Part shown: positions 8,288-23,166 of the stretch, piece by piece
Numbering within the stretch: the stretch's first letter is position 1
Layout of the letters: the number at the start of each line of letters is the position of its first letter
Origin: Betaproteobacteria bacterium
Lineage (GTDB): Bacteria; Pseudomonadota; Gammaproteobacteria; Burkholderiales; WYBJ01
Length of the DNA: 35,478 nt
Assembly (NCBI GenBank): GCA_009377585.1
Contig: WHTS01000062.1
Location: 1-35,478, forward strand
Direction: 5' to 3'
Translations under genes and position numbers: made by a program
Notes under the pieces: model-generated
Told to the model about the DNA's origin: nothing
The model's input: the letters and a program-made list of their open reading frames with translations, nothing else
The model's database searches: none

Positions 8288-9574
8288 TCAGCCGGGATCG
8301 CGCGCGAGCCGTACGCCGCTGAATTGCCAGCGCGCATCCGGGGGGAAGAAATTACGGTACGTCGATCGGATATGCCGTTCGGGTGTGACGCAGGAGCCGC
8401 CGCGCAGCACGTACTGGTTGCACATGAACTTGCCGTTGTATTCGCCGACCGCGCCCGGCGCGGACCGGTAGCCGGGATAGGGCGCGTAGCTGCTTTGCGT
8501 CCACTCCCACACGTCGCCGTAGAGCTGCGAGAAGCCTGCTTGCGGATCGGTGCGCGGCGCCAGCGGATGCAGCGCGCCGCTGTCGCAGAAATTGCCTTCG
8601 ACCGGCAGGTGGGCCGCCGCCACCTCCCATTCGAACTCGGTCGGCAGCCGCGCGCCCGCCCAGCGCGCATACGCATCGGCCTCGAAATAGCTCAGGTGGC
8701 ACACCGGCGTGCTCGGCTCGATCGGGACCAAACCGTGCAGCGTGTAGTCGAACCAGCGGCCGTCGCGACACTCCCAATAAAGCGGCGCGCGCCAGTCGTT
8801 GGCCTGCACCGCATCCCAGCCCATCGACAGCCACAGCTCCGGACGGCGGTAACCGTCGTCCTCGATGAAAGCGAGATATTCGCCGTAGGTCACCGGGTGC
8901 GACGCGAGCGAGAAATCCCGCAGCAGCACCGCATGCCGCGGTCCTTCGTTGTCGAATGCGAAGCCGTTGCCGTCGTGGCCGACCTCGCAGGTACCACCTG
9001 CAATCGACGTCCAGGCGCGCTTGCGCGCGTGGACCGGCGTGAGCGGCCAGCGTTCGCGATACGCCGGCGCGAGCGGATTGCGCGCCAGCAGGTGTTTCAC
9101 GTCGGTGAGGATCAGCTCCTGATGCTGCTCCTCGTGGTTGATGCCGAGCGTGACCAGGTCGATGAAAGCCTGTTGCATGCCGGTTCGCGTGGCGAGCAGC
9201 TCGCCCATGCGCTGATCCACGTGCGCGCGATAAGCAAGCACTTCGTCCAGCGCGGGCCGGGTCAGCATGCCGCGCTGCGGGCGCGGGTACTTGTCGCCGA
9301 CCGTGTTGTAGTAGGAGTTGAACAGCACGCGAAATGCGCCCTGGAACGGCTTGAAGCCGCGGTAGTAGCGTTCGAGCAGGAACGTTTCGAAAAACCACGT
9401 GGTGTGCGCGAGATGCCATTTCACCGGGCTCGCATCCGGCATCGACTGCACCACGCAGTCCTCCGCCGACAGCGGCTGCGCAAGCGCTTCGGATCCCTGG
9501 CGTGCGGCTGCGTATAGCTCGGCGAGCGATTGCGCGCGGATGCGGGGTTGGCGGGCTGTGCGGGTGCGTGCCAT
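8288..9574 (-). CDS. egtB: Ergothioneine biosynthesis protein EgtB (sulfoxide synthase)
   Basis: EgtB is a non-heme iron enzyme that joins a thiol donor (gamma-glutamylcysteine or cysteine) to hercynine with O2, giving the sulfoxide precursor of ergothioneine. From ATG 9574 it has 428 residues, the usual length. The N-terminal DinB-like domain supplies the three-His iron site: a His in KWHLAHTTWFFET (probably His57) plus His147 and His151 in the HX3HXE motif NHEEQHQE. The C-terminal formylglycine-enzyme-like (SUMF1) domain has TPVCHLSYFEADAYARWAGARLPTEFEWE and ends in RGGSCVTPERHIRSTYRNFFPPDARWQFSGVRLA. ATG 9574 has AAAGGA at the right distance; an in-frame ATG at 9595 is possible. No egtD (hercynine synthase) lies in the window. 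Confidence 0.96.
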   Translation of the reverse strand: MARTRTARQPRIRAQSLAELYAAARQGSEALAQPLSAEDCVVQSMPDASPVKWHLAHTTWFFETFLLERYYRGFKPFQGAFRVLFNSYYNTVGDKYPRPQRGMLTRPALDEVLAYRAHVDQRMGELLATRTGMQQAFIDLVTLGINHEEQHQELILTDVKHLLARNPLAPAYRERWPLTPVHARKRAWTSIAGGTCEVGHDGNGFAFDNEGPRHAVLLRDFSLASHPVTYGEYLAFIEDDGYRRPELWLSMGWDAVQANDWRAPLYWECRDGRWFDYTLHGLVPIEPSTPVCHLSYFEADAYARWAGARLPTEFEWEVAAAHLPVEGNFCDSGALHPLAPRTDPQAGFSQLYGDVWEWTQSSYAPYPGYRSAPGAVGEYNGKFMCNQYVLRGGSCVTPERHIRSTYRNFFPPDARWQFSGVRLARDPG

Positions 9575-9895
9575 CGGGAGTCCTTTCGCGTTCATAAGGC
9601 GCTATCGATTGCGCTTGCCGCCTGCTCGGGCAACGGCCTGGGGGTGCCGGTCCGCCCGATTATTACCCAAAACTTCGTGCCCGGTCACTGCGACGAAGTA
9701 CGCCGGTGCTCGGCTCGGTCGACGCATGCTTGCTTGCGCGCAATGTTTGCGCGTGCGATGCAGCGAACTCGCAAGCCAATCGCCCAAGGCTGCAAGGCAC
9801 GTGCCCGATCGGTGCAGGGGGTCGCATGACTTCGCGCTGCGCTCGCACGGCCGCGAATGCGGGCTTAGAATGCATACAAGCCAACCTGCGCCGAA
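9575..9895. other. Gene-free spacer between divergent egtB and nitrile hydratase genes
   Basis: About 320 bases without a convincing gene. Open frames here run on both strands but lack ribosome sites and recognisable sequence. It should hold the egtB promoter on the minus strand and the promoter of the nitrile-hydratase-like operon on the plus strand. TAGAAT at 9866-9871 (5 of 6 to TATAAT), about 25 bases before the first gene, is a candidate -10, but no good -35 is visible. Confidence 0.4.
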
Positions 9896-10219
9896 ATGCC
9901 AATGACAGCCGTACACGATCTCGGCGGGCAACCCGCCGGACCTATCGACCGTGCCGAGCACGAGCCGACCCTGTTCGACCAGCGCATCGATGCGATGATT
10001 CGCCTGCTTACCCACCCGAGCCGCGCCGTGTTCACGGTCGATGCCATGCGCCGTTCGATCGAAAGCCATTCGTCCCAGGAGTACTTCGGGCTCACCTACT
10101 ACGAGAAGTGGCTGCATGCGATCCGGCGGCTCACCCTCGAGCAGGGCGTGATCAGCGAAGCGGAGCTCGCGCGCAAGCTCGACCAATTGCGCCACCGTTC
10201 CCCGGCTGGCAAGCCGTGA
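9896..10219 (+). CDS. Nitrile hydratase beta subunit, N-terminal half as a separate protein
   Basis: A 107-residue protein equal to the helical N-terminal domain of nitrile hydratase beta subunit, or the matching small subunit of thiocyanate hydrolase and toyocamycin-type nitrile hydratases. Diagnostic text is VDAMRRSIESHSSQEYFGLTYYEKWLHAIRRL, followed by TLEQGVISEAELARKLDQL. The YYEKWL-x-A-x-x-x-L pattern belongs to true beta subunits rather than to the beta-like activator proteins. The normal beta subunit is about 220 residues; here the SH3-like half is encoded by the next gene. The last codons overlap that gene as GTGA, so translation is coupled. The start is ATG 9896, with another ATG at 9902. 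Confidence 0.85.
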   Translation: MPMTAVHDLGGQPAGPIDRAEHEPTLFDQRIDAMIRLLTHPSRAVFTVDAMRRSIESHSSQEYFGLTYYEKWLHAIRRLTLEQGVISEAELARKLDQLRHRSPAGKP

Positions 10220-10503
10220 ACGAACGCTTCGCCCCAGGCGCGCGTGTGCGGGTGCGCTCGGCCCAGCCGCCCGGCCATTGCCGCACGCCCGCCTATTTGC
10301 GCGGCAAGCGCGGCACCGTGGTGTGCCTGCACGGGAGCTTTCGCGATCCCGAGAAGCTCGCGTATCACAAGCCGGGTTTGCCGCGCCAAGCACTCTACAT
10401 GGTGCGCTTCGACTATCTCGAGCTGTGGCCCGAGCGCAGATCCGCGGGCTCGGCCGCGATGTGCGCGGACCTCTACCAGCACTGGCTCGAGCCCGACGCC
10501 TGA
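10216..10503 (+). CDS. Nitrile hydratase beta subunit, C-terminal SH3-like half as a separate protein
   Basis: A 95-residue protein equal to the C-terminal SH3-like barrel of nitrile hydratase beta. Family markers are FAPGARVRVRSAQPPGHCRTPAYLRGKRGTVV, where GH-x-R-x-P-x-Y-x-R-G-x-x-G is the hallmark, then HGSF-x-x-P and LYMVRFDYLELWPE near the end. The start is a GTG that overlaps the previous stop by four bases (GTGA), an arrangement for equimolar synthesis. Together with the previous gene it makes one complete beta chain in two pieces. The alpha gene follows 20 bases downstream. Alternative reading: a single ancestral beta gene split by mutation. The precise overlap and intact ends argue for a functional three-subunit enzyme. 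Confidence 0.87.
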   Translation: MNERFAPGARVRVRSAQPPGHCRTPAYLRGKRGTVVCLHGSFRDPEKLAYHKPGLPRQALYMVRFDYLELWPERRSAGSAAMCADLYQHWLEPDA

Positions 10504-10523
10504 TCGATTCACGGAGAGCATCC

Positions 10524-11171
10524 ATGGCGCATGCACACGCGCACGATCACGATCACGACCAAGCCGATCCGCACGCCCCGATCGAACAGCATGCGGACTA
10601 CCGGCCGGAATCGTTGCTGCTGGAGCAGGCGTTGCGCGAGCTCCTGATCGAGAACAACGTCTTCACCGCCGCCGACATCCAGCGCCAGATCGAGGATACC
10701 GAGTCGCACAATCCCGGCCTGGGCGCGAAGGTCGTGGCGCATGCCTGGGTGAATCCCGACTTCAAGGCGCGGCTGCTGGCCGATCCTAAGCCCGCGCTGA
10801 CAGCGTTCGGAGTCGACGTGTCGAACTCGCCCGAGCTCAAGGTGGTCGAGAACACAGAAGGCGTGCATCACATGATCGTCTGCACCCTGTGTTCCTGCTA
10901 CCCCAAGATGCTGCTGGGGATTCCGCCGGCCTGGTACAAGAGCCGCGAGTACCGCTCGCGTGCGGTGATCGAGCCGCGCGCGGTGCTCGAGGAGTTCGGC
11001 TGCGAAGTGCCGGACGATGTCGAAGTGCGCGTGGTCGACAGCACGGCCGACCTGCGTTATTTCGTGTTGCCGAAGCGTCCGGCCGCAACCGAGGGGTTCA
11101 GCGAAGCGCGCCTGGCGGAGCTCGTCAACCGCGATTCGATGATCGGCGTTTCGTTCGCGCGCGAGCTCTGA
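10524..11171 (+). CDS. Nitrile hydratase alpha subunit, Co-type (or thiocyanate-hydrolase-like gamma subunit)
   Basis: A 215-residue catalytic subunit. The metal claw VCTLCSC is at residues 119-125 (Cys120, Cys123, Ser124, Cys125). Thr within the motif is typical of cobalt enzymes, where the second and third Cys become sulfinic and sulfenic acids. Other family text is GAKVVAHAWVNPDFKARLL, GIPPAWYKSREYRSRAVIEPR and VRVVDSTADLRYFVLP. The N-terminus carries a His/Asp run, HAHAHDHDHD, resembling the thiocyanate hydrolase gamma subunit. The residue after CSCYP is Lys rather than the Trp I recall in nitrile hydratases. The enzyme hydrates nitriles to amides, or hydrolyses thiocyanate; the sequence does not settle which. 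ATG 10524 follows CGGAGAG. No amidase or activator gene adjoins it. Confidence 0.92.
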   Translation: MAHAHAHDHDHDQADPHAPIEQHADYRPESLLLEQALRELLIENNVFTAADIQRQIEDTESHNPGLGAKVVAHAWVNPDFKARLLADPKPALTAFGVDVSNSPELKVVENTEGVHHMIVCTLCSCYPKMLLGIPPAWYKSREYRSRAVIEPRAVLEEFGCEVPDDVEVRVVDSTADLRYFVLPKRPAATEGFSEARLAELVNRDSMIGVSFAREL

Positions 11172-11270: not shown

Positions 11271-12050
11271 ATGTACGGCTGGCGTGGCAGGATCGGATTG
11301 CTCGTGCCCTCCATCAATACGACGATGGAGACCGAGTTCTGGCGCATCGCACCCGAAGGCGTGTCGGTGCACTCGGCGCGCATATCGGGCGGACGCCACG
11401 GCACGCCGGAGGAGCTGCGCGGCATGGAGTCCGCCAGCAAGAATGCCGCACGCGACGTGGCGATGGTCGAACCCGACGTGGTCGTGTACGGCTGCACCAG
11501 CGGCAGCTTTTTCGAAGGCCCGGCGTGGAACGAGAAGATCTGCGCGCAGCTCACCGAGATCACGCATGCCCCGACCGTGACGACCGCGGGCGCGATGGCC
11601 GAGTGCCTGCGCGCCGGCGGGCACAGGAAAGTCGCGGTCGTCACACCTTATGTCGAGCTCACCAACGAGCGGCTGAAGGAGTTCCTGCGCGCATTCGATA
11701 TTCGCGTGACGCACCTCGGCACCTTCGATATGCTGGACATGTTCGATCACGCCAAGATCCTGCCGGAAGAAATCTATCGCAAGGTGAAGGCGTCGGACAG
11801 CGACGAGGCCGAAGCGCTATTCGTCGCCTGCACCCAGCTGCGAGCGCTGGAAGTGCTCGACAGGCTCGAGCGCGATCTCGGCAAGCCCGTGTACTCCGCG
11901 ATCCAGGCCACCGCGTGGCAAGCCTACGCCGTCATGGGCGTGGATCCGCAGATCGCCGACTGCGGCAGCCTGCTGCGCAAGCTGTCCGAGCCGGGCGCAT
12001 TGAAGCGCGCGGGGTCGGCGCAGGGGCAGCGCATGCGAGAGTCCGCCTGA
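11271..12050 (+). CDS. Asp/Glu racemase superfamily protein, maleate cis-trans isomerase/arylmalonate decarboxylase-like
   Basis: A 259-residue cytoplasmic protein of the two-cysteine Asp/Glu racemase superfamily. The N-terminus GRIGLLVPSINTTMETEFWRI is the form seen in maleate isomerases and arylmalonate decarboxylases. Both catalytic Cys positions are filled: Cys75 in VYGCTSGSF and Cys187 in FVACTQLRAL, which favours isomerase or racemase chemistry over the single-Cys decarboxylases. TTAGAMAECLRAGGHRKVAVVTPY is the hinge region. The likely substrate is a small dicarboxylate or related acid, not determined. AAGGGA precedes the ATG by seven bases. It follows the nitrile-hydratase-like operon by 99 bases, behind its own -10-like element, and is followed by an unknown gene. 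Confidence 0.88.
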   Translation: MYGWRGRIGLLVPSINTTMETEFWRIAPEGVSVHSARISGGRHGTPEELRGMESASKNAARDVAMVEPDVVVYGCTSGSFFEGPAWNEKICAQLTEITHAPTVTTAGAMAECLRAGGHRKVAVVTPYVELTNERLKEFLRAFDIRVTHLGTFDMLDMFDHAKILPEEIYRKVKASDSDEAEALFVACTQLRALEVLDRLERDLGKPVYSAIQATAWQAYAVMGVDPQIADCGSLLRKLSEPGALKRAGSAQGQRMRESA

Positions 12051-22092: not shown

Positions 22093-23166
22093 TCAGCGAA
22101 AACGTCCCGAGGCAGCGACGAAGCGCGCGTAGGTTTCCGGATCCACGAACCGGCTGCGCTTGCTGCCCAGTGCGAAGCCGAGCGCGTCCAGCGTACGCTC
22201 CACCGTCCCGCGAGCAAGACCGCGGGTGATGAAGACCAGGCGCGAGCGCCGTTCCTGATCCGGCCAGCGCGGCAGGAACACCGGCTCGTGCACGATTCTT
22301 TGCACCGCGTGCACGGCGACCGGCTCGCCTTCGACATTGAGCACGCCTTTCATGCGCAGCAGCTGCGCGCCCTTGAGCCCGGCCAGCTTGTCGAGCCATA
22401 GCACCAGGCCGGCGCGGGTTACCGGTGCGTCGTGCCAGAGCGTGAATGTGCGCAGGGCATCCGATTGCGCCAGGTGCTCGCTGCGATCATTGCCGGCTGC
22501 GCGCGCCACCTGATCGGCCCGTGCGAGCCAGTCGAACGCCCCTTCGGCCTCGGGTTGCCAGGCCGGGCCCAGCGCGGTCGCCGCGTCGGTCTCGGTCGTG
22601 ACCACGCGCAGGATGGGCGCGCCGGGATTGAGCGCCCGCAGCCGGGCTTCGAGCCGGTCGAGTCCCTCGGGTGCTGCCAGGTCGGGCTTGCTCACGAGCA
22701 GCCGGTCGGCGATCGCGACCTGCTTGACGGGCTCGGCGAACTCTTCCAACTGCCCGGCTGCGTTGACGCCGTCGACCATCGTGATGACGCCGTGCGGGCG
22801 GTAGCGTTCGGCCATGTGGGCGTCCTCGCACAGCGTCTCCATCAGCGGCACCGGATCGGCCAACCCGGTCGTCTCGACCAGCACCCGGTCGAATGCCGAG
22901 CCCCCGGCATATCCGCGCGCCAGCGTACGCAACGCGCCGGCGAGATCGCCGCGCGCGCTGCAGCAGATGCAGCCGTTGTCCAACACCACCAGGTGTTCGA
23001 GGGGCGAGGCGACCAGCAGATGATCGATCGCCATCTCGCCGAATTCGTTGATCACCACCGCCGCGCGCGCGAACGCCGGCGTACCGATCAGGCGGTTGAG
23101 CAGCGTCGTCTTGCCGCTGCCCAGGAAGCCGGTGAAGAGGGTGACCGGTATGCGCGCCTCGCTCAT
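22093..23166 (-). CDS. CobW/P47K family GTPase (COG0523 metallochaperone type)
   Basis: A 357-residue G3E-family P-loop GTPase. Motifs in order are the Walker A GFLGSGKTTLLNR (residues 13-25), VINEFGE (39-44), the metal-binding GCICC (65-69), VLVETTGLADP as the switch/Walker B region, and LVSKPDL in place of NKxD. The C-terminal CobW_C domain has RMKGVLNVEGEPVAVHAVQ and RSRLVFITRG. Family members load metals (Zn, Co, Fe or Ni) onto target enzymes. The client cannot be told here. A cobalt-type nitrile-hydratase-like enzyme lies 11 kb away, which is suggestive only. There is no obvious Zur box upstream. It is convergent with the PEP-CTERM gene. Confidence 0.93.
   Translation of the reverse strand: MSEARIPVTLFTGFLGSGKTTLLNRLIGTPAFARAAVVINEFGEMAIDHLLVASPLEHLVVLDNGCICCSARGDLAGALRTLARGYAGGSAFDRVLVETTGLADPVPLMETLCEDAHMAERYRPHGVITMVDGVNAAGQLEEFAEPVKQVAIADRLLVSKPDLAAPEGLDRLEARLRALNPGAPILRVVTTETDAATALGPAWQPEAEGAFDWLARADQVARAAGNDRSEHLAQSDALRTFTLWHDAPVTRAGLVLWLDKLAGLKGAQLLRMKGVLNVEGEPVAVHAVQRIVHEPVFLPRWPDQERRSRLVFITRGLARGTVERTLDALGFALGSKRSRFVDPETYARFVAASGRFR

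Follow-up and report, generated by a model that had tools for sequence, protein, structure and literature searches.

Among described nitrile hydratases, ScNHase of Streptomyces canus CGMCC 13662 resembles the locus presented here in being of the cobalt type, in having its genes in the order βN-βC-α and in lacking an activator gene. Its report gives the order as anhD (βN)-anhE (βC)-anhA (α), with subunit masses of 10.41, 11.35 and 21.33 kDa, states that an activator gene was not recognised in the genome, assigns the native form as D2E2A2 by gel filtration, describes AnhD as a metal and subunit-swapping chaperone, and has the enzyme, which transforms acetamiprid, used on acetamiprid and thiacloprid; it also mentions toyocamycin nitrile hydratase as a three-subunit enzyme whose α subunit ToyJ was reported active alone (PMC7329996). 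A further three-subunit nitrile hydratase, plasmid-borne in flonicamid-degrading Microvirga flocculans, carries its β genes on both sides of α according to a review (PMC11573777), which ties to this enzyme the hydration of flonicamid reported for strain CGMCC 1.16731 (PMC8278588). With both enzymes published, a split-β architecture is not in itself new. The earlier note on this DNA had named thiocyanate hydrolase and toyocamycin nitrile hydratase as three-subunit relatives but had missed these two. ToyK and ToyL are the other subunits of the toyocamycin enzyme, ToyJKL, and thiocyanate hydrolase ScnABC (2dd4), from Thiobacillus thioparus, is likewise a three-subunit member of the same superfamily. 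Classical Co-type nitrile hydratases, in contrast, have a fused β subunit, a Trp after the CSCYP of the α metal loop and an activator gene. In a study of how diverse nitrile hydratases and thiocyanate hydrolases (SCNases) are, the gene trees described are two, each separate from the other (PMC10098168).

An operon with a divided β subunit

The stretch of DNA analysed here, 35,478 nucleotides long and referred to as the window, encodes three open reading frames that we find exactly where the earlier note had placed them, with the following features:

9896..10219, + strand: βN gene of 107 aa, corresponding to the helical N-terminal half of a nitrile hydratase β chain
10216..10503, + strand: βC gene of 95 aa with a GTG start, corresponding to the SH3-like C-terminal half of a β chain
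10216..10219, + strand: βN/βC start/stop overlap GTGA, read from the sequence
10524..11171, + strand: α gene, 215 aa, Co-type, N-terminus rich in His and Asp
10881..10898, + strand: metal-binding motif C120-T-L-C123-S-C125 of α, read from the sequence
10905..10907, + strand: Lys128 of α, at the site of thiocyanate hydrolase γArg136 and of the classical nitrile hydratase Trp

All three products match their Pfam families above the gathering scores (βN, PF21006 NHase_beta_N, 2.4e-19; βC, PF02211 NHase_beta_C, 1.7e-22; α, PF02979 NHase_alpha, 5.1e-76), and the Co-type motif VCTLCSC and the loop GIPPAWYKSREYRSR are both present as the earlier note read them. The three genes thus encode a genuine and intact nitrile hydratase family member, whose architecture is known but uncommon. 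The proposed division of β between its helical N-domain and its SH3-like C-domain is borne out by the single-β profile TIGR03888, of whose 226 positions βN spans 1-99 and βC 137-225, so that β is cut at the inter-domain linker and the linker itself is lost; the two small proteins score 58.7 and 74.7 bits, short of the cut-off of 152.2. Against the Pseudomonas putida β chain 3qxe_B, βN aligns with residues 1-93 and βC with residues 129-218; βN could alternatively start six nucleotides further on, at its second ATG (9902), which aligns with the start of classical β chains. The best solved-structure matches of α and of the β halves are to classical Co-type enzymes (1v29, 3qxe, 4ob1), with 4ob1 at 1.7e-65 (a value favoured by a duplicated segment of the 4ob1 chain) and 1v29 at 8.9e-60 for α, compared with 7.8e-47 for ScnC (2dd4_C), and with 3qxe_B at 2.9e-10 and 3qyg_B at 6.2e-16 for the β halves; βN also matches ScnB (2dd4_B) at 3.2e-07. 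The α subunit scores 239.4 bits against TIGR01323, below the cut-off of 249.85, which other split-type α subunits can exceed (L001, 251.2; L031, 257.4). Against TIGR03793, a model for NHLP leader peptides, it scores 79.9 bits and so passes the cut-off of 50.9; this leader family is related to nitrile hydratase α. RefSeq names the small subunits of such loci 'SH3-like domain-containing protein' (one βN 'nitrile hydratase') and the α subunit 'nitrile hydratase subunit alpha'.

The genome itself (G000; 6.76 Mb in 242 contigs, 99.42% complete) yields two α subunits in a PF02979 search, that of the window and that of a second βN-βC-α operon on the reverse strand of another contig (C112, L001:1480-2761), whose α has Arg after CSCYP and a His-rich start and is nearest to a congener locus (L037, 75% α identity). 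This second three-gene copy, the GTGA junction found again at the window's sister locus L044, and the separate β halves in 35 of the 36 loci of the window's clade together argue that the split is no assembly error, a concern the earlier note had raised over the GTGA junction. Across 30 non-SCNase βN-βC-α loci, the window and its paralogue included, the junction is a 4-nt ATGA, GTGA or TTGA overlap in 21 and a TAATG overlap in three, with neither type in the remaining six. That the window copy is instead a decaying or non-catalytic paralogue, its split a product of degeneration, is a reading to which we give hardly any credence: its end branch in the α tree is long (0.46 vs a median of 0.28), Lys128 is rare and a second copy exists in the genome, but the metal ligands and the equivalent of β Arg52 (in M51-R52-R53) are retained, the frames are intact, the codon-position GC of βN (0.68/0.45/0.81) is like that of coding DNA, and the sister locus shares the junction.

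Gene orders and the place of the locus in the α and β trees

Loci were gathered from a genome contig scan (19 loci), from PF02979 searches that covered 60 relatives, the class (369 genomes), the phylum (398) and the genus of a Streptomyces genome (246), with regions retrieved for most matches that lacked a locus, and from five plasmids. This gave 185 loci with an α subunit above 150 bits, among them the window itself (L002) and at least six that repeat a place already represented (L075-L078, L139, L157), all fused-β or α-only. Where 'activator' in an order label denotes an additional βN-like ORF, the orders were α-β-activator (73 loci), βN-βC-α (61), β-α-activator (21), βN-βC-α-activator (9), α-βN-βC-activator (8), βC-α-βN (5) and others (8), the labels of L061 and L062, both SCN-type loci, being contig-end artefacts; these counts are not prevalences, as sampling was centred on the window's relatives and one Streptomyces genus. 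It is important to note that separate β ORFs in βN-βC-α loci are true by the definition of the label, and that the 45 loci grouped with the window were drawn by gene order with Leu/Ile/Val loci excluded, which makes the purity of that group circular; we therefore rely on the rows of the α tree and on a tally of every locus, 75 in all, ordered βN-βC-α, βN-βC-α-activator or βC-α-βN. Single genomes can hold several such operons, with four split-β and one classical in a genome of the same order (G014) and three split-β and one classical in a genome of the same genus (G002), an expansion of the family.

A quick α tree of 133 rows (129 loci remaining of the 185 after removal of near-copies, plus four references) already fell into two sides (98, SH-aLRT only). 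In a more careful tree of 72 rows, which drops 14 of the 22 Streptomyces split rows, 43 of the 58 classical ones and the long rows L186, L021, L135 and L137, a branch supported at 100/99 separates 35 rows from 37. The former comprise classical, α-βN-βC-activator, α-only and Streptomyces split loci; the latter comprise the window, its own paralogue, other βN-βC-α loci with Arg, Lys or Val, the βC-α-βN operons of Microvirga terrae, Rhizobium, Polymorphobacter and Sphingomonas, thiocyanate hydrolase, and the fused-β locus L020. The same bipartition is recovered at 100/99 in a tree of βN plus βC (66 rows), the bootstrap of which had not fully settled. Of the 36 locus rows that fall with the window in the α tree, L020 alone lacks separate β halves: in this Mycolicibacterium sphagni locus an SCNase α stands beside a fused β, making it a fused-β SCNase and the reverse of the window's situation. 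The window's sister is L044 (65% α identity; support 100/96 and 100/98).

The earlier note's suggestion of a separate lineage stands in so far as the α subunit, compared with ScnC and classical nitrile hydratases, clusters tightly inside no characterised clade, and falls short in that both trees side the window with thiocyanate hydrolase. The SCNases and L020 form a long branch of their own (100/100 in the α tree), and thiocyanate hydrolase arose within the window's group unless the root of these unrooted trees lies on that very branch. A single clade of the window copy and the Streptomyces split group was rejected (AU p 0.0065); one side holding all split rows of both groups was not (AU p 0.398), a result that neither establishes nor rejects a single origin of every split β. 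The α-βN-βC-activator loci (L014, L025, L047, L048, L049, L050, L053, L101), which retain the Trp and an activator-like gene, look like further fissions, as the order takes three to six label changes on two trees.

The trees also bear on which published enzymes may lend their biochemistry to the window. The ScNHase masses fit a Streptomyces group with Leu, Ile or Val after CSCYP, 12 of whose 13 sampled α subunits come to 20.8-21.7 kDa and one, with an early start, to 24.4 kDa, and do not fit the Streptomyces members of the window's own group (24.6, 24.8 and 29.9 kDa, the last with an early start) or the window α (24.0 kDa), although starts for these estimates were picked by a crude rule. By subunit mass, ScNHase thus appears to belong to that Streptomyces group, across the 100/99 branch from the window. 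For M. flocculans, whose enzyme shares the split β and differs from the window in its permuted gene order, the congener M. terrae stands in: its βC-α-βN operon lies on the window's side, has Arg after CSCYP and has a cobalt/nickel transporter gene nearby. Judged from sequence, what is new is the tree position, with the split and permuted enzymes and thiocyanate hydrolase and apart from both the classical nitrile hydratases and the Streptomyces group that matches ScNHase in mass. A literature search found no description of the window's group as such, which is weak evidence of novelty as most subscription papers lay outside its coverage.

The residue beside the metal loop

The Lys that follows CSCYP, singled out by the earlier note as out of keeping with an otherwise nitrile hydratase-like loop, proved informative. 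At this third residue after CSC, Trp is found in 89 of 98 fused-β loci (two reading CSCTNW and two CSCFPW; the rest have Phe in three, His in two, Leu in two, Arg in one and Thr in one) and in all eight α-βN-βC-activator loci. Over the 75 loci of the orders βN-βC-α, βN-βC-α-activator and βC-α-βN it is found in none, the residue being Arg in 42, Leu in 20, Val in six, Ile in five and Lys in two. Among the locus rows that share the window's part of the careful α tree, 36 in all, the residue is Arg in 33, Lys in two (the window and L043, from a congeneric genome) and Val in one (L004); the sister L044 has Arg. The group thus carries mostly Arg or Lys in place of the Trp beside the metal loop, and it includes thiocyanate hydrolase.

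In alignments, Lys128, basic though not Arg, falls on γArg136 of ScnC (2dd4_C), on the Trp of its R136W chain 3vyg_C and on the Trp of the classical chains 1v29, 3qxe and 4ob1. A deposited thiocyanate hydrolase chain, 3vyg_C, differs from 2dd4_C by an Arg-to-Trp change at precisely γArg136, a position that others have evidently judged important. This R136W chain goes with a publication, and a paper reportedly deals with two pocket arginines of thiocyanate hydrolase. In the β subunit, the triplet at the Arg52 equivalent reads RRR in all nine βN-βC-α-activator loci, MRR in the window, where Met takes the place of ScnB Arg90, KRR or KRK in four permuted operons, and FRD or LRD in 30 Streptomyces loci. 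The role of the nitrile hydratase residues R52 and R157 is treated in PMC7193024.

These residues, together with the trees, raise the question of whether the window encodes a thiocyanate hydrolase, converting thiocyanate to carbonyl sulfide and ammonia. The βN-βC-α order with three subunits, the placement on the ScnC side of both trees and the basic residue at the γArg136 site all speak for such an activity, which we nonetheless consider very unlikely: the α subunit reaches 188.2 bits against the curated model TIGR03887, 103 bits short of its cut-off of 291.45, whereas two SCN loci tested (395 and 393.6 bits) and even the fused Mycolicibacterium locus L020 (382.7) pass it; the small subunits, at 107 and 95 aa, are much shorter than the 157 (2dd4_B) and 126 (2dd4_A) residues of the known enzyme, as the earlier note had remarked; βN has MRR in place of RRR; the activator-like gene that follows α in those nine RRR loci is absent after the window α; and the SCNases keep to their own long branch.

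A basic residue at the γArg136 site also makes another, perhaps anionic, substrate possible. In its explicit form, namely hydration of an anionic cyano compound other than thiocyanate (for example a cyano-carboxylate) with Lys128 binding the charge, this proposal draws on the contrast between Arg or Lys in 35 of 36 window-side rows and Trp in most fused-β loci, on the exact target of the 3vyg mutation, and on Asp/Glu-racemase-type genes downstream of both the window operon (11271-12050) and its sister (L204:14417-15073). We regard it as unlikely, since neutral flonicamid is hydrated by a strain whose permuted enzyme, grouped by gene order only, counts among the window's relatives, and since, as set out below, neither the 11271-12050 protein nor the nearby TctC receptors lend it weight. 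An organic nitrile remains our preferred substrate for the window enzyme.

Activator, genomic context and a proposed mechanism

The P14K-type activator family TIGR03889 had no match in the window's own, nearly complete genome. In the same search 9 of 14 other genomes were positive, namely all nine that hold a classical or Trp-type operon, while the five negative ones comprise three with split-type operons only and two with SCN loci. Extending this comparison, the activator was found in none of 15 genomes whose full-length α subunits all belong to the window's kind (G000, G018, G025, G054, G426, G428, G429, G431, G517, G521, G640, G693, G795, G797, G937; G054 is 84% complete and five have no completeness figure), and in all seven typed as holding the window's kind together with another α (G002, G005, G014, G272, G427, G448, G558), where it adjoins the other α, in a fused-β operon in five, in an α-βN-βC-activator operon in G272, and with G427 counted without a typed order. 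It was not found in G430, which has the window's kind and a second, untyped α. An additional βN-like gene is present in nine βN-βC-α loci, all nine with an SCN-type βC, and behind α in none of the group's other 34 loci, at least 900 nt being seen in each; in four permuted operons it is βN itself, with the βN start NDIGG, that stands behind α. NixA-type or CbtA/CbtB genes lie near all four plasmid loci of the group, which fits with cobalt, but such genes also occur beside a classical operon. A His-rich α N-terminus, an idea modelled on a eukaryotic fusion (PMC3323583, PMC2603476), was considered as a mark of activator-free split enzymes and set aside, as many classical α subunits have it and most Streptomyces split ones lack it.

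Upstream of the operon lies an EgtB gene on the reverse strand (8288-9595; TIGR03440, ergothioneine biosynthesis, 593.5 bits); downstream follow a gene of the Asp/Glu-racemase/arylmalonate-decarboxylase superfamily (11271-12050), an unassigned 170-aa ORF and a TctC receptor. The first of these is a weak pathway marker, its product scoring far below the decarboxylase and EutA NCBIfam cut-offs and BLAST at 1e-12 giving no match to it around the 30 other loci compared. Near those loci, TctC receptors recur at eight and a far-downstream ABC ATPase at nine, the remaining window ORFs at two or fewer. The TctC/Bug receptors were rejected as a clue to the substrate because five of seven genomes carry at least 121 each. 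An amidase-signature gene (PF01425) was absent from the 20 window ORFs tested, which include two of the amidohydrolase family. In the sister cluster, an amidase gene (L204:4762-6420) lies 2.1 kb upstream of βN, and the downstream racemase-family gene there belongs to the same broad superfamily as that of the window. A CobW-family GTPase (PF02492) is encoded on the reverse strand at 22093-23166, about 11 kb from the operon.

In light of these comparisons, we propose that the three genes encode one activator-independent cobalt α-βN-βC enzyme that would hydrate C-N triple bonds, most likely those of an organic nitrile, and that is not an SCNase by the curated cut-off, a reading we hold to be likely. 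It is supported by the three family matches, by CTLCSC in 45 of the 45 loci grouped with the window, by the Arg52 equivalent, by the second three-gene copy, by the same arrangement in 30 non-SCNase loci, by the agreement of the α and β trees, by the distribution of TIGR03889, by what is reported for ScNHase and M. flocculans and by the amidase of the sister cluster. Counting against it are that ScNHase, from which the biochemistry is borrowed, seems to sit across the tree, that the basic Lys128 leaves room for another substrate, that the window ORFs tested lack an amidase-signature gene, and that α and both β halves score below the curated nitrile hydratase cut-offs. The subunits would probably assemble as (α, βN, βC)2, with α binding Co(III) in C120-T-L-C123-S-C125, C123 presumably oxidised to the sulfinate and C125 to the sulfenate; helical βN, with its Arg52 equivalent, and SH3-like βC would replace the single classical β and close the active site, in which water would be added to the C-N triple bond. 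Cobalt loading would most likely proceed via βN as a chaperone, as reported for AnhD in the Streptomyces enzyme. More speculatively, and in our estimate improbable as a whole, the split-β Arg/Lys enzymes may form one old activator-independent branch with a charged pocket for anionic or strongly polar cyano substrates, of which thiocyanate hydrolase would be a specialised offshoot and the window enzyme a member acting on another natural cyano compound.

Three-gene nitrile hydratases are thus no curiosity of one or two strains: they make up a broad group, of which a sampled genome can hold as many as four copies and in which β is divided, a match to the activator family is lacking and a mostly basic residue takes the place of the Trp, and inside which thiocyanate hydrolase falls. 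This group provides a framework for studying cobalt loading without P14K and the origin of thiocyanate specificity, as well as a pool of candidate enzymes for nitrile hydration.
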